Shown one piece after another: positions 26,466 through 38,256 of a stretch of 39,899 nucleotides of DNA. Both the position numbers and the translations under genes were made by a program. Below the pieces are notes generated by a model. That model ran no database searches and was not told the origin of the DNA. It was given only the letters and a program-made list of their open reading frames with translations. How positions within the stretch are numbered: the stretch's first letter is position 1; the number at the start of each line of letters is the position of its first letter. The stretch is from Flavobacteriaceae bacterium (GTDB lineage: Bacteria; Bacteroidota; Bacteroidia; Flavobacteriales; Flavobacteriaceae): NCBI GenBank assembly GCA_002707745.1, contig PANU01000026.1, positions 1-39,899 of the forward strand. Reading direction: 5' to 3'.

Positions 26466-27452
26466 ATGAGTGCAACTATAAAAAAAATTGCGGTTCTTAC
26501 CAGTGGTGGTGATGCACCAGGGATGAATGCTGCTATAAGAGCTGTAGTACGGTGTTGTACTTTTCATAACCTGGAATGTGTAGGGGTATACCGTGGCTTA
26601 CAAGGGTTAATTGAAAACGATGTTACACCACTGGGTCCCAGAAGCGTAAAAAACATTATTAACAGAGGAGGAACTTTTTTAAAATCGGCCAGATCTAAGG
26701 AGTTCAGAACCAGAGAAGGGAGAGAAAAAGCATTTCAAAATCTGCAAAATGAAAGTATTGACGCGCTTATAGTTATAGGCGGCGATGGTACCTTTACAGG
26801 AGCAAAGATCTTTAATGAAGAATACAGCTTCCCAATAATTGGTTTGCCAGGGACCATTGATAATGATATAAATGGCACCGATTTTACGATTGGGTACGAC
26901 ACAGCGCTGAACACGGTTGTGGAAGCCATTGATAAAATAAGAGATACAGCAAATTCTCATAACCGCTTGTTTTTGGTGGAGGTGATGGGAAGAAATGCTG
27001 GCGATATAGCACTAAATGCCGGAATAGGTGCCGGAGCTGAAGAAATCCTAATACCTGAAGAAGATTTAGGACGGGATAGGTTAGTGGCATCTTTAAAACG
27101 CAGTAAAAAAGCAGGTAAAACTTCCAGTATTGTAGTGGTTTCAGAAGGTGACCAGATAGGGAAAAATATTTTGGGCTTAGCAGCGTATATCCAGGAAAAT
27201 TTAAACGAATACGAAGTAAAAGTAACCGTCCTTGGACATATTCAACGTGGCGGAGCTCCTAGCTGTTACGACCGTGTTTTGGCAAGCAGGCTAGGTGTTG
27301 CAGCTGTAGATGCGCTGTTAGCAGGAAAACGAGATGTAATGATAGGCATTAAGCATGGCAAGGTAGTAGCCGTACCTTTTGCTGAAACTTTAACGGGCAC
27401 AAATGAAATAGATAAAGATTTAATACGAGTGGCAGACATTACTTCGTTATAA
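26466..27452 (+). CDS. pfkA: 6-phosphofructokinase
   Basis: KKIAVLTSGGDAPGMNAAIRAVVR, VIGGDGTFTGA, GLPGTIDNDINGTDFTIGYDTALN, VTVLGHIQRGG. Confidence 0.97.
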   Translation: MSATIKKIAVLTSGGDAPGMNAAIRAVVRCCTFHNLECVGVYRGLQGLIENDVTPLGPRSVKNIINRGGTFLKSARSKEFRTREGREKAFQNLQNESIDALIVIGGDGTFTGAKIFNEEYSFPIIGLPGTIDNDINGTDFTIGYDTALNTVVEAIDKIRDTANSHNRLFLVEVMGRNAGDIALNAGIGAGAEEILIPEEDLGRDRLVASLKRSKKAGKTSSIVVVSEGDQIGKNILGLAAYIQENLNEYEVKVTVLGHIQRGGAPSCYDRVLASRLGVAAVDALLAGKRDVMIGIKHGKVVAVPFAETLTGTNEIDKDLIRVADITSL

Positions 27453-27553
27453 AATATTAGGAACCTTCCGCCTAAACAGCATAAAAGCTGAAATGTGGAA
27501 GCAAAAGGTAATTAATTGGAACAAAAAAACACCCGCTTTTGCGGACATAAAAG

Positions 27554-28549
27554 ATGATAAAAACAGGAATTAATGGCTTCGGAAGAATAGGCAGATTAGC
27601 TTTTAGAGTAGCCTCACAACGAGACGATGTGGAAATAGTCGCTGTAAATGATTTATTGGACGTAGACCACTTAGCGTATTTACTGGAATTCGATTCGGTA
27701 CACGGGAAATTTCCAGGGGAAGTTTCAGTAAAAAATGGAAACTTAGTAGTGAATGAAAAAACGATTCGGGTAACTGCTGAAAAAGACCCGGCAAATCTTG
27801 CCTGGGATAAGGTTGATGCCACGATGGTAATGGACTGTACCGGAATTTTTAAGGAAATAGATACAGCACAAGCACACCTGAAAGCAGGAGCAAAAAAAGT
27901 AGTGATTTCGGCACCCTCCAAAACAGCTCCTATGTTTGTAATGGGTGTAAATCATACCGACGTTAAAAAATCGGATACCTTAATTTCAAATGCTTCCTGC
28001 ACTACCAACTGTTTAGCCCCAATGGCAAAAATTATTGATGATGCCTTACATATTGAGGAAGGGTTAATGACCACGGTACATTCGGTAACTGCTACACAAA
28101 ATACGGTAGATCAGCCTTCCCGAAAAAACTATAGAATTGGACGTAGTGCCCTCGCCAATATTATACCAACAACAACAGGAGCAGCCGTTGCAGTAACCAA
28201 AGTAATTCCTGCCCTGGAAGGTAAACTTACCGGAATGGCGTTCCGGGTGCCCACGGTAAATGTTTCGGTGGTAGACTTAACAGTGCGCACAAAAAAACCT
28301 GCTAGTTATGAGGAGATAAAAAAAATCTTTAAAAATGCTTCGGAAGGATCATATAAAGGGGTAGTAAGTTATACCGAAAAAGCAGTTGTTTCCCAGGATT
28401 TTGTAAGCAATCCACATACTTGTAATTTTGATGCAGAAGCCGGAATTGCATTAAATGAAAACTTTTTTAAGCTAATAGCCTGGTACGATAATGAGTATGC
28501 TTATTCGGCAAAACTTGTAGAACTAACAGCCTACGCGGCCAACTTGTAA
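27554..28549 (+). CDS. gap: Type I glyceraldehyde-3-phosphate dehydrogenase
   Basis: [49 protein letters not shown]. Confidence 0.97.
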
Positions 28550-28550
28550 T

Positions 28551-29414
28551 ATGGTACTATTTACAGACGGAGGTTCTACAAAATGTGATTGGGTACTTTT
28601 AAATGCCAAAGGGAAAAAGATATTGCAAACACAAACACTGGGTCTTAACCCAACTGTTATTTCTCCTGAAGAACTGGAAAGCAGAATCCTGTACAATCCT
28701 CAGTTACGTGAGATAATGATGGAAGTAGAAAAAGTGGATTTTTACGGTGCTGGTTGTGGTACCAAAACGCCCAGAAATGTACTGCATCAAGTATTAAAAG
28801 AGCTGTTTTCTAACGCTGCTGTTACCGTACAGGAAGATCTGGCAGCGGCAGTGTATGCCGTAACTACACTGCCTGGAATTATTTGTATTCTGGGAACGGG
28901 TTCCAACAGTTGTTTTTTTGATGGAACACACATACACAGCCCCATTCCCGCATTGGGGTATAGTATCATGGACGAGGCAAGTGGTAATTACTTCGGAAAA
29001 CAATTGCTGCGGGATTATTTTTACCAGAAAATGCCCACCCATCTTGCCGAAAAATTTGAAGAAAATTTCAATCTGAATGCAGACGAGATTAAAGTAAACT
29101 TATACCAAAAGTCTAATCCCAATGCCTATCTGGCCTCATTTGCACAGTTTATTTTTACTGAAAAATGTGCCGACCCATATTTTAAAGCATTACTGGAAGA
29201 GGGATTGGAGCGTTTTATCCAAGCCAGAATATTAACTTTTAAAGAAGCACGGAATTTTCCTGTTCATTTTATTGGAAGTATAGCTCATTTTAGTAAAGAA
29301 ATAATTGAAAATTGCTTTGCCAGATATGGGCTCCACTTAGGAAATGTGGTACAACGCCCTATGGATGGCCTGGTAACGTATTACCAACAAAAAATACAGT
29401 CTTCTAAGCACTAG
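28551..29414 (+). CDS. BadF/BadG/BcrA/BcrD-type ATPase / N-acetylglucosamine kinase-like protein
   Basis: LFTDGGSTKCDWVLL phosphate-1 motif, CILGTGSNSCFFDG, ALGYSIMDEASGNYFGKQLLRDYF. Confidence 0.87.
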   Translation: MVLFTDGGSTKCDWVLLNAKGKKILQTQTLGLNPTVISPEELESRILYNPQLREIMMEVEKVDFYGAGCGTKTPRNVLHQVLKELFSNAAVTVQEDLAAAVYAVTTLPGIICILGTGSNSCFFDGTHIHSPIPALGYSIMDEASGNYFGKQLLRDYFYQKMPTHLAEKFEENFNLNADEIKVNLYQKSNPNAYLASFAQFIFTEKCADPYFKALLEEGLERFIQARILTFKEARNFPVHFIGSIAHFSKEIIENCFARYGLHLGNVVQRPMDGLVTYYQQKIQSSKH

Positions 29415-29500
29415 TACAGAGTTGTTTGCAAGATAAAGTTACAAGAGTTGCAGGGAAGGGGATTTTGGATATGTTATACTGAAAAATTAAACCACCATAA

Positions 29501-29592
29501 TATTTTCGTTTTTCTATTATCGTTTTTCTATTTTCGTAACCACAAATTGAAATGATAATTGAAATCATTATTGCAATTGAAATTGAAAATAA
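29501..29592. repeat. Short direct repeats upstream of pgi
   Basis: tattttcgtttttctattatcgtttttctattttcg, then aattgaaatgataattgaaatcattattgcaattgaaattgaaaa. Confidence 0.7.
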
Positions 29593-29616
29593 TAAAATCG
29601 TAATTCACACGTACAA

Positions 29617-31173
29617 ATGTCGTTATTGCCAAAAATAGATCCTACTACAACCAAAGCCTGGCAGGCATTACAAGTGCATTATGAGGCTACGAAAGATATT
29701 CATATAAAAAATCTGTTTGCAGAAGATGCTAATCGAGGAGATGATTTTGGGATGTTCTGGAATGATTTTTTTGTAGATATTTCAAAAAACAGAATTACTG
29801 CTCAAACACGGGATTTATTGCTTCAGCTGGCTGAAGAAGTACACTTAAAACAAGCAATTACTGCTCAGTTTCAAGGCGAAAAAATAAACGAAACAGAAAA
29901 CAGGGCAGTCTTGCATACGGCATTACGCGATTTTAGTACTATGAAACCTGAAGTGACTGCCTGCCTTCAAAAAATGCAGGAGTTTTCAGATAAAGTTAGC
30001 AATGGAAACTATAAAGGTGCCACTGGAAAAGCAATAGACACCCTTGTAAACATTGGTATTGGTGGAAGTCATTTGGGTCCAGAAATGGTGTACGAAGCTT
30101 TGGCAAGCTATAGAAAAGGCATTCAACTTCATTTTATTTCAAACATAGATGGAGATGCGGTGCAGGAAACGCTAAGAGCTGTTAATCCTGAGACGACCTT
30201 GTTTGTAATTGTTTCAAAAAGTTTTACCACCAATGAAACGCTTGTAAATGCAGCATTTGTTAAACAGTGGTTTGTTGATAAACTTTCAGCAAAAGCAGTG
30301 GAAAAGCATTTTATTGCAGTTTCAGCAAATAGGGAAGAAGTAGCATCTTTTGGAATTTCAGAAGAAAAAACTTTTCCAATGTGGGATTGGGTAGGAGGCA
30401 GGTTCTCTTTATGGAGCGCCGCAGGACTTTCAGTTTGTTGTGCTATTGGGTATAAAAATTTTGAAGCCTTGCTCCAAGGTGCCTATGAAATGGATCAACA
30501 TTTTGCAACGGCACCATTTCAGGAAAACATTCCTGTTACTTTAGGACTTCTTTCGGTATGGTATAACAATTTTTATAACTGCGAAACCGAAGCTGTTATT
30601 CCCTATTGCCAGGCATTACATAAATTGGTTCCATACCTGCAACAGGCAATTATGGAAAGCAATGGAAAAACAACAGACCGAAATAATAAAAAAATAACAT
30701 ACCAAACAGGAACTATTGTATGGGGAGCAACAGGAACCAATGCCCAACACGCCTTTTTTCAATTATTACACCAAGGAAGTAAACTTATTCCTTCAGATTT
30801 TATTTGTTTTACCAACCCATTAGGAGATGCCACAAAAAATCACGAAATACTGATGGCAAATTGTCTCGCGCAAACCGAAGCTTTAGCAAAAGGTAAAGTA
30901 CAAGATGCTGCGATGCCCTATAGTGCTTTTTCTGGAAATAAGCCCAGCACGTCTGTTTTTATAAAATCCTTAACCCCTAAAAACTTGGGAAGCTTGATAG
31001 CGATGTATGAACATAAAATATTTGTACAAGGAATTGTATGGAATATTTTTAGTTACGACCAATGGGGAGTGCAATTGGGTAAAGAAGTAGCAAGTGCTAT
31101 TTTACAAAATGAACCCCTGTTGCATGGTAAAAACGCAATGCAATTTTACAGAAAACTAAAAAAATACGATTAA
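29617..31173 (+). CDS. pgi: Glucose-6-phosphate isomerase
   Basis: VNIGIGGSHLGPEMVYEAL, SKSFTTNETL, WDWVGGRFSLWSAAGLS, QWGVQLGKEVA. Confidence 0.97.
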   Translation: MSLLPKIDPTTTKAWQALQVHYEATKDIHIKNLFAEDANRGDDFGMFWNDFFVDISKNRITAQTRDLLLQLAEEVHLKQAITAQFQGEKINETENRAVLHTALRDFSTMKPEVTACLQKMQEFSDKVSNGNYKGATGKAIDTLVNIGIGGSHLGPEMVYEALASYRKGIQLHFISNIDGDAVQETLRAVNPETTLFVIVSKSFTTNETLVNAAFVKQWFVDKLSAKAVEKHFIAVSANREEVASFGISEEKTFPMWDWVGGRFSLWSAAGLSVCCAIGYKNFEALLQGAYEMDQHFATAPFQENIPVTLGLLSVWYNNFYNCETEAVIPYCQALHKLVPYLQQAIMESNGKTTDRNNKKITYQTGTIVWGATGTNAQHAFFQLLHQGSKLIPSDFICFTNPLGDATKNHEILMANCLAQTEALAKGKVQDAAMPYSAFSGNKPSTSVFIKSLTPKNLGSLIAMYEHKIFVQGIVWNIFSYDQWGVQLGKEVASAILQNEPLLHGKNAMQFYRKLKKYD

Positions 31174-31269: not shown

Positions 31270-33747
31270 ATGAAAAAAAGTAACATGTTGTCGTTTCTTT
31301 TTATGTTTTGTGTAGCTTTTGGGTTTGCACAAACAGATGCAGAACGAAGAGAAATTATTAGTAATTACGATCTTGATGCACTGTCAGAAATGGAAGCGCA
31401 ATTTGCAGCTACTTTTGCTGCCGAAAAAGCCGAAGCACTTGCATTGGCAGCTATCTACGGATGGCAAGAATTTATTGAATTGGAAAATGGCGGGCAAGCA
31501 GAACTCGTAGGTGTATTTGCATCTGGAGCACCTATTTACTACCAAACCGATAATCCTGAAGGAGCCATTACAACCCGAACCGATAAAGTACATACTGGCG
31601 GTGGCGCTGGTCTGGATCTAAACGGAGAGAATATGGTTGGGGGTATCTGGGATGGAGGTCGTGTTCGTGAAACACACGAACTTATAGGAGGCCGTGCCGA
31701 CCAAATTGATGGTACAACAACTATTAGCAACCACTCTACTCACGTAGCAGGAACCATGATTGGAACTGGTGCGGTGAATGGCGGTAATGCTAAAGGGATG
31801 GCACCTATGGCTTCACTTTTAGCACATTCATTTAATAATGATGAAGCCGAAATGACGGCAGCAGCAGCAGCAGGGTTATTAGTTTCTAACCACTCTTATG
31901 GTATTCCGGCTGTTAGCCAATCTGGAAATCCAGTAGATTTGTACTACCTTGGGTATTACGATTCTAATGCAAGAGATCTGGATGCAATAGTGTACAACGC
32001 ACCATTTTATTTACCTGTTTGTTCTGCAGGAAATGACGGTCAAGCCGGAATAAACAATACGGGAAGGTATGACTATTTAACCGATAAAAGTGTTTCAAAA
32101 AATTCTGTGGTTGTAGCAGCAGTAAACGAAGTATTAAACTATACAGGTCCTAATAGTGTGAACATGTCTAGTTTTAGTAGCTGGGGACCTACAGATGACG
32201 GAAGAGTAAAACCAGATATTTCTGCGAAGGGAGTTAATATGTTTTCTGCTACAGGAACCTCAAACACTGCTTATGGGAATATGAATGGAACCTCTATGGC
32301 TGCTCCAAATACTTCTGGAAGCCTTATGTTGTTACAGCAACATTATAATGACCTTAACGGAAACTTTATGTTAAGTTCAACACTTAGAGGCGTAGCATTA
32401 CATACCGCAGACGAAGCAGGATTTGATCCAGGACCAGATTTTCGTTTTGGATGGGGATTGCTTAACATCGAAAGAGCTGCAGAGGTTATTTCTAATAACG
32501 GTACTAGTTCTCTCATAATTGAAGAAACCCTGGCACAAGGTGATGTTTATACTATTACAGTACAATCTGATAATATTAACGATTTAATAGCCTCTATTAC
32601 CTGGACAGATCCTGCAGGAACTGTACCTCCTCCAGGAAATGAAGATGCATTTATCCCAGCTTTAGTAAATGACCTGGATTTACGTGTATCTCAGGATGGC
32701 GGAGCTACTTTTATGCCATGGAAACTTGATGCGGCTAACCATGCTGAAGCAGCAACTACTGGCGATAATTTTGTAGATAATATTGAAAAAATTGAAGTAG
32801 GTGGAGCTTCTGGAGAATACATTATCAGAATTTCTCATAAAGGAGCCATCACGAATGCAACACAAGATTTTTCACTAATTGTAAGCGGTATTGCTGTAGA
32901 AGATTACAGAGTATCTACGCACGATGGGGTTGAAATAGTTTGTGACGAGGATATTACAGCTTCTTTTATTGTAGATATGCTGTTTGAAGATGGTTTTAAC
33001 GATACTGTTAATTTTACAACTGAAGATTTACCTGCAGGAGTAAATGCAACTATTGTTCCTTCAACCTTAACTACCAGTGGTGCTGCAGTTGTAGCGCTTA
33101 CAGGAATTGAACCTTTAGCTCCGGGTGACTACCAGTTTAAAGTGGTAGCAACAGGAACATCACAAACTGTTAATTTGTATCCAGTACTAAGTATTGCAGA
33201 AGGAGATTTGGAAGCAGTAGCTCTAAACATCCCTGCAAATGACGCTGTGGCAATTCCAACAGAAGTTGTTTTTGAGTGGGACGAAGTTGGTGCTACCAAC
33301 TCGGTACAATACGAATTTGAGTTAGCAACAGACGAAGCATTTACAGTGCTAGTTGCTTCAAGTACTACAACCCAGCCTACAACTACGGTTTCCAACTTAA
33401 ATGAAGGTACCGAGTATTTCTGGAGAGTTCGTGGAATAAATGATTGTGATGAAGGAGACTTCTCAGACACATTTAATTTTACGACAGAAGGTGTTTTAGG
33501 TATTAACGAAACTACCATTGCAGGTTTAGTTGTATATCCTAACCCTACTTCAGGGATGTTAAATGTTACAGCTGCAGCACAAGTAACCTCTGTTGAAGTA
33601 TTAAATATTTTGGGACAAACCTTGTTGAACCAACAAATAGGTGCAACACAAGCACAAATAGACCTTTCTGCCTTAGCTGCAGGAAACTATTTTGTACGCG
33701 TGCAAGCCGAAGATGCTGCTACAGTAATTCAAATTGTGAAGAAATAA
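31270..33747 (+). CDS. S8 family serine peptidase with fibronectin-like region and type A T9SS C-terminal sorting domain
   Basis: Signal peptide; catalytic WDGGR, HSTHVAGTM, MNGTSMAAPNTSG; C-terminal VVYPNPTSGMLNVTA...VEVLNILGQTLLNQQ...LAAGNYFVRVQ...IVKK. Confidence 0.95.
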   Translation: MKKSNMLSFLFMFCVAFGFAQTDAERREIISNYDLDALSEMEAQFAATFAAEKAEALALAAIYGWQEFIELENGGQAELVGVFASGAPIYYQTDNPEGAITTRTDKVHTGGGAGLDLNGENMVGGIWDGGRVRETHELIGGRADQIDGTTTISNHSTHVAGTMIGTGAVNGGNAKGMAPMASLLAHSFNNDEAEMTAAAAAGLLVSNHSYGIPAVSQSGNPVDLYYLGYYDSNARDLDAIVYNAPFYLPVCSAGNDGQAGINNTGRYDYLTDKSVSKNSVVVAAVNEVLNYTGPNSVNMSSFSSWGPTDDGRVKPDISAKGVNMFSATGTSNTAYGNMNGTSMAAPNTSGSLMLLQQHYNDLNGNFMLSSTLRGVALHTADEAGFDPGPDFRFGWGLLNIERAAEVISNNGTSSLIIEETLAQGDVYTITVQSDNINDLIASITWTDPAGTVPPPGNEDAFIPALVNDLDLRVSQDGGATFMPWKLDAANHAEAATTGDNFVDNIEKIEVGGASGEYIIRISHKGAITNATQDFSLIVSGIAVEDYRVSTHDGVEIVCDEDITASFIVDMLFEDGFNDTVNFTTEDLPAGVNATIVPSTLTTSGAAVVALTGIEPLAPGDYQFKVVATGTSQTVNLYPVLSIAEGDLEAVALNIPANDAVAIPTEVVFEWDEVGATNSVQYEFELATDEAFTVLVASSTTTQPTTTVSNLNEGTEYFWRVRGINDCDEGDFSDTFNFTTEGVLGINETTIAGLVVYPNPTSGMLNVTAAAQVTSVEVLNILGQTLLNQQIGATQAQIDLSALAAGNYFVRVQAEDAATVIQIVKK

Positions 33748-33769
33748 AAACACGCTTATATTTTATACG

Positions 33770-33800
33770 AAAAACCTTCGCCTAACGCGAGGGTTTTTCT
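33770..33800 (+). terminator. Rho-independent terminator of the S8 peptidase gene
   Basis: aaaaaccttcgc-ctaac-gcgagggtttttct with one G-T wobble. Confidence 0.85.
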
Positions 33801-33874: not shown

Positions 33875-34249
33875 ATGAGTGAACAAGACAAAAAAATTAG
33901 TTTAGCAACCGCACAAACCTGGACGCAGGAATGGCGTTCGGTAGAGAGTGACTACAACAGCCACAACGAGTGTAATGCCTTTTTAATCCCAGTACAGGAT
34001 TTGCAGGGCGTTCTCGCAGAAATTGGAGCCAACCCAGGAGACGATGCCTGTGTACGTGCTTATTTAGGGGTTGATCCAAGTACCAACGAAGAAAAATTGA
34101 TCATTGTAGGGACCCAAAAAGATAGAAACGGGGTGTATAGGGATCTTTTACCCAATGCAGCCGATGGCGATGGGGGTGACGGAAATAGTATCTGGGATTT
34201 TACGAAGGCTTGTCCGCCTATGTGCGACGACAGGAGTTCTTTAAATTAA
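33875..34249 (+). CDS. Conserved hypothetical soluble protein (124 aa) ending in CPPMCDDRSSLN
   Basis: No signal peptide or TM; recognisable blocks ECNAFLIPVQDLQGVL, CVRAYLGVDP, KLIIVGT, NGVYRDLLP, CPPMCD. Confidence 0.8.
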   Translation: MSEQDKKISLATAQTWTQEWRSVESDYNSHNECNAFLIPVQDLQGVLAEIGANPGDDACVRAYLGVDPSTNEEKLIIVGTQKDRNGVYRDLLPNAADGDGGDGNSIWDFTKACPPMCDDRSSLN

Positions 34250-34256
34250 TTGTTTG

Positions 34257-34886
34257 ATGTCGGAGATTCCTATTTATTTAGGTGATATACAAGTTTTACT
34301 GGCATTAATTCTAGCTGTGATTTATTTTATAGGCTTTTCAAAATACGGAAAGGCCTATAAAATTTTCACCTTATATTTAGCAGTTATCGCCATAATTCAA
34401 TTGATAACTTTTTATTATGCACTTTATAAGTGGAACAATATTTTCTTTTTTCACTTTTATTTTATTAGTCAGTTTATTTTTATGTCGTTGTTTTATTACA
34501 ACCTACTGAAAAATAATTTTATTCTTTTAATACTGGGATTAGGTCTTGTAGTAATAAGTGCTCAATTTGTTTTGGATCCCACAATTTTCTATGAATATAA
34601 TACCTATGGTGTTAGTTTAACACAAAGTATAATAGTATTATACGCTATAATTTATTATTATAGATCTTTGTCTGTTGCTAATCCTTTTATGCTTATAAAC
34701 ACAGGAGTGCTACTGTATTTTATAACGAGTATTTTATTTTTTGCTTCCGGAAATCTGTTCTTGCATCCAGATATACCAAAGGAAACCAAACGATACATAG
34801 GGCTTATTAACCAATTTCTCTACTTTGTTTTCCAGGTTCTGATTTTTTTAGAATGGTACCGCAATTATCGGATAAAGAAAGTGTAG
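34257..34886 (+). CDS. Multi-pass (~7 TM) membrane protein, paralogue A
   Basis: Seven hydrophobic segments; shared motifs GFSKYGKAYKIFT, FMSLFYY, GVSLTQSIIVLYA, TSILFFASGN, FLEWYRNYR. Confidence 0.82.
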   Translation: MSEIPIYLGDIQVLLALILAVIYFIGFSKYGKAYKIFTLYLAVIAIIQLITFYYALYKWNNIFFFHFYFISQFIFMSLFYYNLLKNNFILLILGLGLVVISAQFVLDPTIFYEYNTYGVSLTQSIIVLYAIIYYYRSLSVANPFMLINTGVLLYFITSILFFASGNLFLHPDIPKETKRYIGLINQFLYFVFQVLIFLEWYRNYRIKKV

Positions 34887-34990
34887 CAATTTTTTGCCGG
34901 TTTTTTACAATTAAATAAAGCCATTTTTCTCATTAAAGACTATAATTTTCTTTCGCACTTGCTCTTTAAAACACATTTTTAGCAAAATTG

Positions 34991-34998
34991 TATCTTCG
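34991..34998 (+). promoter_or_regulatory. Putative -7 box TATCTTCG upstream of paralogue B (long leader)
   Basis: aaaattgTATCTTCGctc; same octamer at 35774 and 3179. Confidence 0.4.
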
Positions 34999-35094
34999 CT
35001 CTATAGCAACATACAATTCAGAAAGTGGAAATAAAAGTATCAATTTTACATATAGTGGACTGTTTCAGCTTAAGGAATAAAGCATAGTGAATTT

Positions 35095-35733
35095 ATGGAA
35101 GGAGAACTTTTAATTAGAGACTTATTAATTCTTCCATCACTTGTTTTACCAATTTTGTACCTTATTGGATTTACGAAGCATGGTAGGGCTTACAAGGTAT
35201 TTACAGCTTATTTAACCTTTATCGCTATACTACAGTGTATTCTGGTGGTGTATGCTTTATATAAGGAAAACAATCATTTTTTATTCACCTATTATTTTAT
35301 TGGGCAATTTTTATTTATGTCCCTCTTTTATTATTTTTTACTGAAAAAAAAATGGATATGGTGGGTAATGGTAATTGTTTTAATAGCTTTAGGTTTTCAA
35401 TACATTTTAGCCCCTGCCAGCTTTATAAACTTTAATAGTTTTGGAGTAAGTATTACACAGAGTATTATTGTGCTATATGCTTTGTTATATTACTACAAGT
35501 GCTTATCTGAAAAAGCCATTTTTCTATTGTTGAATACGGGAATTCTTTTTTATTTTTTAACCAGCATTTTATTTTTTGCTTCTGGGAATTTAATGTTGGA
35601 TTTAAATTTACCGCAACAAACGTTACTGCAATTTGAATATATAAATGATTTTTTATACCTGACTTTTATGCTATTGATATTTCTGGAATGGTATCGTAAT
35701 TATCGCCCAAAAAAACATAAGAAAACTACTTAA
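35095..35733 (+). CDS. Multi-pass (~7 TM) membrane protein, paralogue B
   Basis: Alignable to 34257-34886 along its length: GFTKHGRAYKVFT, FMSLFYY, GVSITQSIIVLYA, TSILFFASGN, FLEWYRNYR. Confidence 0.85.
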   Translation: MEGELLIRDLLILPSLVLPILYLIGFTKHGRAYKVFTAYLTFIAILQCILVVYALYKENNHFLFTYYFIGQFLFMSLFYYFLLKKKWIWWVMVIVLIALGFQYILAPASFINFNSFGVSITQSIIVLYALLYYYKCLSEKAIFLLLNTGILFYFLTSILFFASGNLMLDLNLPQQTLLQFEYINDFLYLTFMLLIFLEWYRNYRPKKHKKTT

Positions 35734-35773
35734 TTCCTCTTTCTTCACAACCTCACAAATAAAGGTAAAATCG

Positions 35774-35781
35774 TATCTTCG
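35774..35781 (+). promoter_or_regulatory. Putative -7 box TATCTTCG immediately upstream of the histidine kinase
   Basis: aaaatcgTATCTTCGtcctaATG; box ends 5 nt before the start codon. Confidence 0.45.
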
Positions 35782-35786
35782 TCCTA

Positions 35787-36587
35787 ATGCAAAATAACCT
35801 GGCCGAAGAAATACAAATTATCCCCATCATTCTTATTGGTATCTCTCTTTTGATATTAATGAGCGCCGCTATTGTTCTGTTTTTCTACCTTTCACGAAAA
35901 AAAATTGTAAAAACCGAACTGGAAAAAGCAACCCTGGAGATTCAGCATCAAAGAGAAATGCTGCAAACCACATTGCTAACCCAGGAAGATGAGCGCAAAC
36001 GCATTGCCCAGGACTTGCACGACGACATAAGCAGTAAGCTTAATATTGTTTCCCTGCATGCCAGTCTCGTACGAGAGGAAGGAATTACCCCACAGGAAGC
36101 AAATACCCTGGGTGCTAAAATTGCAGGGATTACTACCACCGTACTTGAAAGCTCGCGGCGCATTGCCCATGCACTCTTGCCCCCTTCTTTGGAAAAATTT
36201 GGCTTGGTGGCTGCCCTTGAAGAACTTTGTGACCAACTTGAAAGTTCAAAAAAATATGAAATAACCACCGTATTTCAATATGAAGAAGAAATCCTTCCTA
36301 AAGACCATGAGTTGCATGTATTTAGAATTGTACAGGAGCTTATTAACAATACTGTAAAATATGCCGATGCAAAAACTGTTAACCTCTCCTTGCAGTCTAC
36401 CAAAAACACCTTACATTTACACTACGAAGACGACGGAAACGGATTTGACCTTTCAGAAGGTAAAAAAGCAAAAGGATTAGGGTTGTCGGGAATTAAAAAC
36501 CGCGCTGCTATTATTGGAGCAACAATTAGCCTGCAATCCCAGCCTCAAAAAGGAATGTCCCTAGACGTTGTTAAACAGTTAACCTAA
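35787..36587 (+). CDS. Sensor histidine kinase (HisKA_3 / NarX-LiaS-like), one N-terminal TM, no evident sensor domain
   Basis: DERKRIAQDLHDDISSKLNIV H-box; ELINNTVKYADAKTV N-box; DDGNGFDL; KGLGLSGIKNRA. Confidence 0.93.
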   Translation: MQNNLAEEIQIIPIILIGISLLILMSAAIVLFFYLSRKKIVKTELEKATLEIQHQREMLQTTLLTQEDERKRIAQDLHDDISSKLNIVSLHASLVREEGITPQEANTLGAKIAGITTTVLESSRRIAHALLPPSLEKFGLVAALEELCDQLESSKKYEITTVFQYEEEILPKDHELHVFRIVQELINNTVKYADAKTVNLSLQSTKNTLHLHYEDDGNGFDLSEGKKAKGLGLSGIKNRAAIIGATISLQSQPQKGMSLDVVKQLT

Positions 36588-36598
36588 ACCTACTTATT

Positions 36599-37267
36599 TT
36601 GATTATAAAAGTTGCCCTTGCAGATGATGAGGAGCTATTTCGTGCGGGTATTGCGCTTATCCTATCCAGGGATCCGGAAATAGAAGTGGTTTACCAGGCG
36701 GAAAATGGCCAACAACTGCTGGATTTTCTAGAATCACAGTCTGACCTCCCGGATATTGTGGTAACCGACATAAAAATGCCTGAACTTAACGGAGTAGAAG
36801 TAACTAAAGTGCTTCGGAAAAAATACCCTGAAATAGGGGTAATAGCCCTTACCACCTATAATACAAAGCCTTTTATTAGAAACATGATAAACGTTGGAGC
36901 TAGTGCATATCTGGTTAAAAATTCGGCACCTGCACATATGGTTCACACGGTAAAACAAGTGTTTCATAATGGTTTTTACTACGATAAATATGTGATGGAA
37001 GTACTTAACACAAGGCATTCTAAAGTAAGTGAAGAAAAATCCGCATACGATGCCGATTTCCTTACCGATCGCGAAACGGAAGTACTAACCCTTATTTGTC
37101 AGCAATACACAACTGCCGAAATTGCAGAGAAACTTCATATTAGTCCGCGTACCGTAGAAGTACATCGTAAAAATTTATTGGCAAAAACAGCTGTTAAAAA
37201 TATTGCGGGATTGGTAGTGTTTGCTATTCAAAATGCCTTAGTTGCACCTTTTGAGGTAGAAGCATAA
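36599..37267 (+). CDS. LuxR/NarL family response regulator
   Basis: TTG start; VALADDEELFRAGIALIL receiver, VVTDIKMPELNGVEV, LTDRETEVLTLICQQYTTAEIAEKLHISPRTVEVHRKNLLAKT HTH. Confidence 0.94.
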   Translation: MIIKVALADDEELFRAGIALILSRDPEIEVVYQAENGQQLLDFLESQSDLPDIVVTDIKMPELNGVEVTKVLRKKYPEIGVIALTTYNTKPFIRNMINVGASAYLVKNSAPAHMVHTVKQVFHNGFYYDKYVMEVLNTRHSKVSEEKSAYDADFLTDRETEVLTLICQQYTTAEIAEKLHISPRTVEVHRKNLLAKTAVKNIAGLVVFAIQNALVAPFEVEA

Positions 37268-37362: not shown

Positions 37363-38256
37363 TTAATTTATCTCCTGAGTGGTGTCTCGTGCTCCAATAT
37401 TTTCAATAGTCTCTATAGTCCCTGTAAAATGTTTCTTTTCGTTTAAATTGAAATAAATAAACCCCGTAGTAAGAACAATAATTACATACAATACGTATTG
37501 TACCAGTAAAGCAATGCCGTTTAGGGCAATATAAATGCCATCGAACATAGAAGTGGGGTCTGATGTGTACGTTTCGGCCACTGTGAGCATTTTAATGAAA
37601 AAGTAGATATACTGTGGGATTTGGGCGATCATTATAATAACATAATACAAAATAAACATCACTAAAAGAGTAGCAAAGGTAATCCACCATTCTCCTTTTA
37701 TAAGTTCAAAACTATAACTAATGCTATCGGATATGCTGCGTTTTTCAAACACTAAAATTCCATAGGTAGTTGCTAGAACTACACCCAGGTAAATCCCTGG
37801 AGCTACGCATACTACAAAACCAAAACCAATAATTAATCCTGTTAGCAAACTCATCCCCATCAGCTTCCAGAAGTCTTTTTTTACACGAGCAATTACTTCT
37901 TTTTTATTTATTTCGCCACCATTTTGTATATAGGATTGTATACTGTGCATTACGGTGCCATACATCAGTCCGTAATACGCAACACCCGATAGAATCATTA
38001 ACAGGAGCGATAGTATAACAGAGAAGCCAAAATTGGTGTCTCCATATAAAAAGGGATTTGTTTCAAAAGCCCCAAGGGAGCCAAAAACTGTTTGCATATA
38101 AAACACATAGGCTACAACCAAAAGAATAAGGGCAGGACCGGCAATACGAAATATTAAACCAAAGAGAGGTTTCCACTGCAAACGAATAAACTTAAAGGTG
38201 TCCCCCAAAATGGCTCCTAAATCGCGTTGTTTTTTAAATTGGATGCTATCCTGCAT
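37363..38256 (-). CDS. Multi-TM hypothetical protein (DUF4013/DUF975-like)
   Basis: QKRDLGAILGDTFKFIRLQWKPLFG N-terminus and ~6 TM segments; upstream neighbour is SpoIIM. Confidence 0.75.
   Translation of the reverse strand: MQDSIQFKKQRDLGAILGDTFKFIRLQWKPLFGLIFRIAGPALILLVVAYVFYMQTVFGSLGAFETNPFLYGDTNFGFSVILSLLLMILSGVAYYGLMYGTVMHSIQSYIQNGGEINKKEVIARVKKDFWKLMGMSLLTGLIIGFGFVVCVAPGIYLGVVLATTYGILVFEKRSISDSISYSFELIKGEWWITFATLLVMFILYYVIIMIAQIPQYIYFFIKMLTVAETYTSDPTSMFDGIYIALNGIALLVQYVLYVIIVLTTGFIYFNLNEKKHFTGTIETIENIGARDTTQEIN

Follow-up and report, generated by a model that had tools for sequence, protein, structure and literature searches.

Gene organization of the module

The window analysed here is a stretch of 39,899 nucleotides, contig PANU01000026.1 of a marine Flavobacteriaceae bacterium (GCA_002707745.1), whose draft genome assembly is about 82% complete. 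It carries a module of genes encoding a small protein (SP), two proteins with seven transmembrane (TM) helices (7-TM proteins, TM1 and TM2), a histidine kinase (HK) and a response regulator (RR). A preliminary description of this DNA gave them as five consecutive plus-strand genes, and all the open reading frames (ORFs) are present at the positions listed below.

33875..34249, plus strand: SP, 124 aa, lacking a signal peptide and ending in a CPPMCD tail; would act as partner or regulator of the 7-TM proteins
34257..34886, plus strand: TM1, 209 aa, 7-TM protein and paralogue of TM2; proposed receptor subunit
35095..35733, plus strand: TM2, 212 aa, 7-TM protein; proposed receptor subunit, from AlphaFold2 and charge topology
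35787..36587, plus strand: HK, HisKA_3 kinase with one N-terminal TM helix and no sensor domain; the phospho-His is residue 78
36599..37267, plus strand: RR, NarL/LuxR-type regulator with receiver and GerE domains; TTG start, uncertain
33769..33799, plus strand: stem-loop resembling an intrinsic terminator, belonging to the S8 peptidase gene upstream; the module begins after it
34991..34998, plus strand: TATCTTCG, Bacteroidota -7-like element upstream of TM2; weak, consensus only
35774..35781, plus strand: TATCTTCG, Bacteroidota -7-like element directly before HK; weak, consensus only

The module lies, as described before, between the S8 peptidase terminator and a convergent gene (37363-38256); the terminator scan found 3 such sites against 2.6 expected by chance. 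The SP frame is preceded by an in-frame TAA 18 nt 5' of its ATG. Pfam matches were obtained for HK (HisKA_3, 6.5e-10; HATPase_c, 7.7e-10) and RR (Response_reg, 2.1e-23; GerE, 5.7e-17). The features expected of a two-component system are present, namely His78 and intact N and G boxes in HK and the VVTDIKMP motif in RR.

The intergenic spacing is tight between SP and TM1 (7 bp) and between HK and RR (11 bp), and not tight between TM1 and TM2 (208 bp) and between TM2 and HK (53 bp). It is in these two wider gaps that TATCTTCG, resembling the Bacteroidota -7 box, is found. TM and HK genes often overlap in relatives, and co-transcription of the module genes in this strain is likely. As for an operator or regulon motif, the upstream regions of 12 relatives share only a TATTTTTA-like element, and beyond terminators no clear inverted repeat was seen in them.

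Distribution and gene association in Bacteroidota

Single-protein searches recovered the SP-TM-HK-RR order also in the same genus, in another genus of the family and in Ichthyobacteriaceae, with different flanks. A sample of 396 Bacteroidota genomes was searched with profiles (A1, then A3/A4) built from relatives of the window proteins. SP was found in 53 of these genomes (29 of 172 genera) and the 7-TM protein in 65 (35 genera), with a spread over about a dozen families and more than one class. A 7-TM gene is situated directly downstream on the same strand in 58 of 69 SP matches and is adjacent in 60, while most of the remaining ones either border the end of a contig or show, in the position expected for the 7-TM gene, a diverged 7-TM-like ORF. 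In the loci examined, TM, HK and RR follow in order after 68 of 80 SP occurrences, and three others are cut by contig ends. A same-strand HK lies within 2.6 kb downstream of 101/110 7-TM matches compared with 4/411 flanking genes, and HK and RR are both downstream in 89/110. The 411 controls were drawn from the same loci and do not belong to a module; the 4 are those with a non-module kinase in the corresponding position. The Fisher p of ~1e-91 is overstated as related genomes are not independent, and the contrast itself stands without it. Of the nine exceptions, two actually precede hybrid kinases which were missed by the kinase model (L197, recognized by Pfam; L244, by sequence). The test set beforehand was that homologues of the 7-TM and 124-aa proteins should occur repeatedly beside HK and RR genes, and these counts bear the association out.

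The flanks of the module differ by lineage and comprise glycolytic genes, a replicative helicase/asparagine synthetase region, tail-collar-like genes, tRNA-synthetase and UvrC regions and others, the gene names being assigned by reading the sequences. Judged by gene order and changing surroundings, SP, 7-TM protein, sensorless HK and DNA-binding RR evidently make up a conserved and repeatedly relocated gene unit, and it is almost certain that the four form a functional unit. The SP, TM, HK and RR trees correlate with r 0.74-0.94 in a mirror-tree comparison, which is confounded by species history.

In the window, a row of phosphofructokinase, GAPDH, N-acetylglucosamine-kinase-like and glucose-6-phosphate isomerase genes (26466-31173) is situated upstream, followed by a secreted S8 subtilase (31270-33747) with a C-terminal type IX secretion sorting domain (Por_Secre_tail, 5.8e-14). 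The glycolytic row is kept in close relatives, and the S8 peptidase stands between it and the module only in some genomes. Genes for tail-collar-like proteins (MSTEPFIGEIKIFGF...) adjoin the module in divergent orientation, often as tandem copies, in several Flavobacterium and in one further family (L084, L085, L087, L089, L094 and, for the other family, L100); they are possibly members of its regulon. Carriage as phage or plasmid cargo was considered and rejected: the window SP had no match in IMG/VR, and the SP of one relative had none in PLSDB.

Properties of the kinase, the 7-TM proteins and SP

The kinase had been described as having one N-terminal TM helix and no obvious input domain. 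The same arrangement of TM helix, linker and phospho-His region was found in all 67 complete related modules. Merely 2-23 residues (median 10) precede the N-terminal TM helix in these 67, and because of this all of them are predicted to be kinases without an extracellular input domain. By hydropathy a single TM helix is seen in 59 of the 67, and the distance from TM helix to phospho-His is exactly 41 residues in most.

The kinase behind the SP-7TM pair is not always of the same class. The pair is followed by a HisKA kinase at L177 and L183, by a PAS-HisKA-receiver hybrid kinase at L197 (Pfam) and by a HisKA_3 kinase carrying an inserted PAS domain at L193, L200 and L203. At L168, a 7-TM protein without recognizable SP precedes a HisKA_2 kinase with a LytTR regulator. 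Constancy of the unit under changing kinase and regulator classes is as expected of an exchangeable input. The proposal that the 7-TM proteins supply the signal input gains from this, because the SP-7TM pair precedes kinases of several classes.

TM1 and TM2 are paralogues with 55% identity, and this genome assembly, at its ~82% completeness, holds no third copy. They were first described as two tandem multi-TM proteins of unknown function; the doubling is a trait of the lineage. A single copy is the rule among relatives, and at least two separate duplications took place. Four or five 7-TM paralogues per genome were observed in G221, G306, G089, G445 and G182, and three in tandem at L173. TM1, TM2 and SP matched no Pfam family even at E=1. 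SP and the 7-TM proteins had no NCBIfam, PHROG or PADLOC match above cut-off; diverse homologues were likewise without meaningful match, and PDB sequence searches gave none for either SP or the 7-TM proteins.

The AlphaFold2 model of TM2 is a seven-helix bundle of high confidence (pLDDT 91.7, pTM 0.88). Mean lysine plus arginine counts of 2.5, 2.9, 1.9 and 3.1 in loops 1, 3 and 5 and the C-terminal tail, against 0.5-0.9 on the opposite side, predict an N-out/C-in topology, so that a seven-helix receptor architecture is indicated at the level of prediction. Conserved polar residues in the membrane include N60, H/N65, Q/E71, Q47, N114, N165 and N184, and several of these lie in the half of the bundle that faces outward. 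The 7-TM protein is unlikely to be a microbial rhodopsin, which was rejected as a candidate on finding no retinal lysine in helix 7 of the window proteins (residues 174-203 in TM2).

SP homologues share a core of approximately GIRxYxG...LVxVGVDxxGxD and a C-terminal tail CPPxCDxxSxLN. The tail motif (CPPxC/SPPY) is present in 60 of 68 SP-slot proteins positive with the hidden Markov model (HMM), in 8 of 21 HMM-negative ones and in 1 of 782 flanking ORFs; the pattern was written after examples were seen and the ratio is descriptive. Several other HMM-negative SP-slot proteins end in a looser proline/cysteine-rich variant of the tail. The structure model of SP is an alpha/beta fold of moderate confidence (pLDDT 78) which looks like a folded domain, and a PDB search with this fold found no match. 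The characterization of SP as a small soluble protein fits the window SP and does not extend to some homologues, which are lipoproteins or membrane-anchored. An N-terminal lipoprotein, anchor or signal sequence is carried by 8 of the 80 recognized SPs and by unrecognized SP-slot proteins at L175, L181, L212, L215, L227 and L229; the body of such leader-bearing SPs would be outside the cytoplasm. An extra SP relative of 252 aa, lipoprotein-like, was seen between 7-TM and HK in a Flavobacterium (L094:4122-4880, minus strand); it seemingly contains two SP-like repeats, the last one ending in CPPC. Heme binding by SP through its CP motif was dropped as a candidate, the cysteines being lost in several Flavobacterium.

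Proposed signal input and comparison with known systems

The module is best explained as a split-receptor two-component system occurring across Bacteroidota, in which a stand-alone 7-TM protein would be the receptor of a sensorless kinase (probability about 0.7). The 7-TM protein, which is N-out/C-in and has conserved polar residues in the outward half of the helix bundle, would bind a signal or the SP tail, contact the single TM helix and the signalling linker of the kinase within the membrane, and so switch the kinase/phosphatase balance of HK. HK would then phosphorylate the NarL-type regulator, and transcription would be altered. The steps of this reading are not equally firm. The 7-TM protein is very probably the input or a direct regulator of the kinase, and it probably acts as a sensor rather than as a brake. 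SP is somewhat favoured as a specificity partner of the 7-TM protein, and its proline/cysteine-rich C-terminal tail is put forward only tentatively as the contact element. A more elaborate version is doubtful, in which Bacteroidota would possess a family of stand-alone GPCR (G protein-coupled receptor)-like 7-TM receptors for which the CPPxC/SPPY tail of the partner encoded next to them serves as agonist or antagonist. The variable body of this partner would sense a cue and present or withdraw the tail, and the receptor would drive interchangeable sensorless kinases.

Several observations weigh against the split receptor. No fusion of 7-TM and HK genes was seen among the 110 7-TM matches, as judged by open-frame lengths (at most 290 aa). 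The mirror-tree signal vanishes among the most divergent half of the pairs. Three lone 7-TM homologues in Flavobacteriaceae (L169, L170, L027) have no kinase or SP neighbour; they may be receptors that act alone or together with distant kinases. The window SP is one of 72 leaderless SPs among 80, for which a meeting with the 7-TM protein at its outer face has no obvious route; these SPs would either act inside the cell or exit by another route. In several Flavobacterium SPs the tail reads RPSPPY in place of the cysteine-bearing form and both cysteines are lost, and because of this replacement the tail cysteines cannot be essential. Rhodopsin- and GPCR-like bundles, which are likewise of seven helices and N-out/C-in, match the 7-TM protein only weakly in Foldseek, the best being the rhodopsin PsFAR (TMq 0.60, prob 0.98, 13% identity, E ~0.5). 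Common descent of the 7-TM family with rhodopsins or GPCRs is not claimed.

The best surviving alternative, although unlikely, is a brake in the manner of LiaF. The 7-TM protein would bind no ligand and hold an intramembrane-sensing kinase off, with release on membrane or envelope stress and modulation by SP. The layout follows the logic of LiaFSR/VraTSR of Firmicutes, which also combine a separate membrane protein, a HisKA_3 kinase without extracellular domain and a NarL-type regulator, and the occurrence with several kinase classes would suit a general regulator. The polar residues conserved on the outward side of the GPCR-like bundle resemble a binding pocket more, however, and divergence in the SP slot together with conservation of the tail suggests specific recognition. 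The membrane protein LiaF inhibits the kinase LiaS, which has two TM helices plus HAMP (PMC7191749). The module kinase in contrast has one TM helix, with no HAMP match in the window HK, which scored 112 bits with the LiaS model (cut-off 450). TM1 and TM2 gave no Pfam or NCBIfam match to the LiaF type, and LiaF is not known to be a 7-TM bundle. The two systems belong to different phyla; LiaF is not known to have an SP-like partner and the 7-TM unit also pairs with kinases other than HisKA_3.

A second alternative, quite improbable, takes SP and the 7-TM protein as outputs of the two-component system, either its targets or a cargo with its exporter, with the latter protein processing or exporting SP as in agr and the kinase sensing the product. 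The agr gene set is similarly made of a small protein, a polytopic membrane protein, HK and RR, and the conserved C-terminal SP tail and the several paralogous systems per genome are in line with this. AgrC is a polytopic receptor kinase, whereas the module kinase has a single TM helix, a median of 10 residues outside and no extracellular or multi-TM sensor for a product. SP, moreover, has the look of a folded domain and is in some cases a lipoprotein, and no protease or transporter family recurs among the matches of the 7-TM protein. A fortuitous neighbourhood reflecting local synteny, to which the upstream glycolytic genes kept in close relatives would point, is practically negligible and refuted by the neighbourhood statistics (58/69; 68/80; 101/110 vs 4/411), the unit persisting with different flanks in about a dozen families.

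Other known systems share parts of the split-receptor arrangement. In BtsS, a LytS-type protein with the 7-TM part fused to the kinase, the N-terminus is outside and the ligand-binding residues are on the periplasmic side of the helices (PMC10653868). The 7-TM receptor kinases (BtsS, 7TMR-HISK, 7TMR-DISM) are like the module in having seven N-out helices coupled to a kinase, but in them the 7-TM and output parts form one covalent chain, whereas in all cases seen the module 7-TM protein is a separate gene. The window proteins had no match to 7TMR-DISM_7TM (PF07695) up to E 1, and only 2 of 33 members gave a hit to it, not a significant one (best E 0.0011). In UhpC-UhpB-UhpA and BceAB-BceS the kinase senses through a partner membrane protein, and UhpB is a HisKA_3 kinase. 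Those partners are transporters of the major facilitator (UhpC) or ATP-binding cassette (BceAB) type, whereas the module 7-TM protein matches no known transporter type. Nearest in function are three-component systems such as LiaFSR and fused 7-TM receptor kinases such as BtsS. By definition the module counts as a two-component system with an accessory input, outside the LiaF/LiaS, 7TMR-DISM, rhodopsin and agr families. No published description of it was found in the open-licence literature, and together with the family searches this agrees with the initial view that no named system has such a composition.

In many bacterial kinases no sensor can be seen, and their input is usually unknown. For one class of sensorless kinases the module would give a concrete answer valid across the phylum, namely a seven-helix receptor that is a protein of its own and has a partner. 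The unit occurs with three or more kinase classes, and a genome often has several paralogous copies of it. Two unnamed protein families would thereby gain a testable role, and the natural, swappable input modules may be used to study how a membrane receptor controls a kinase in trans.

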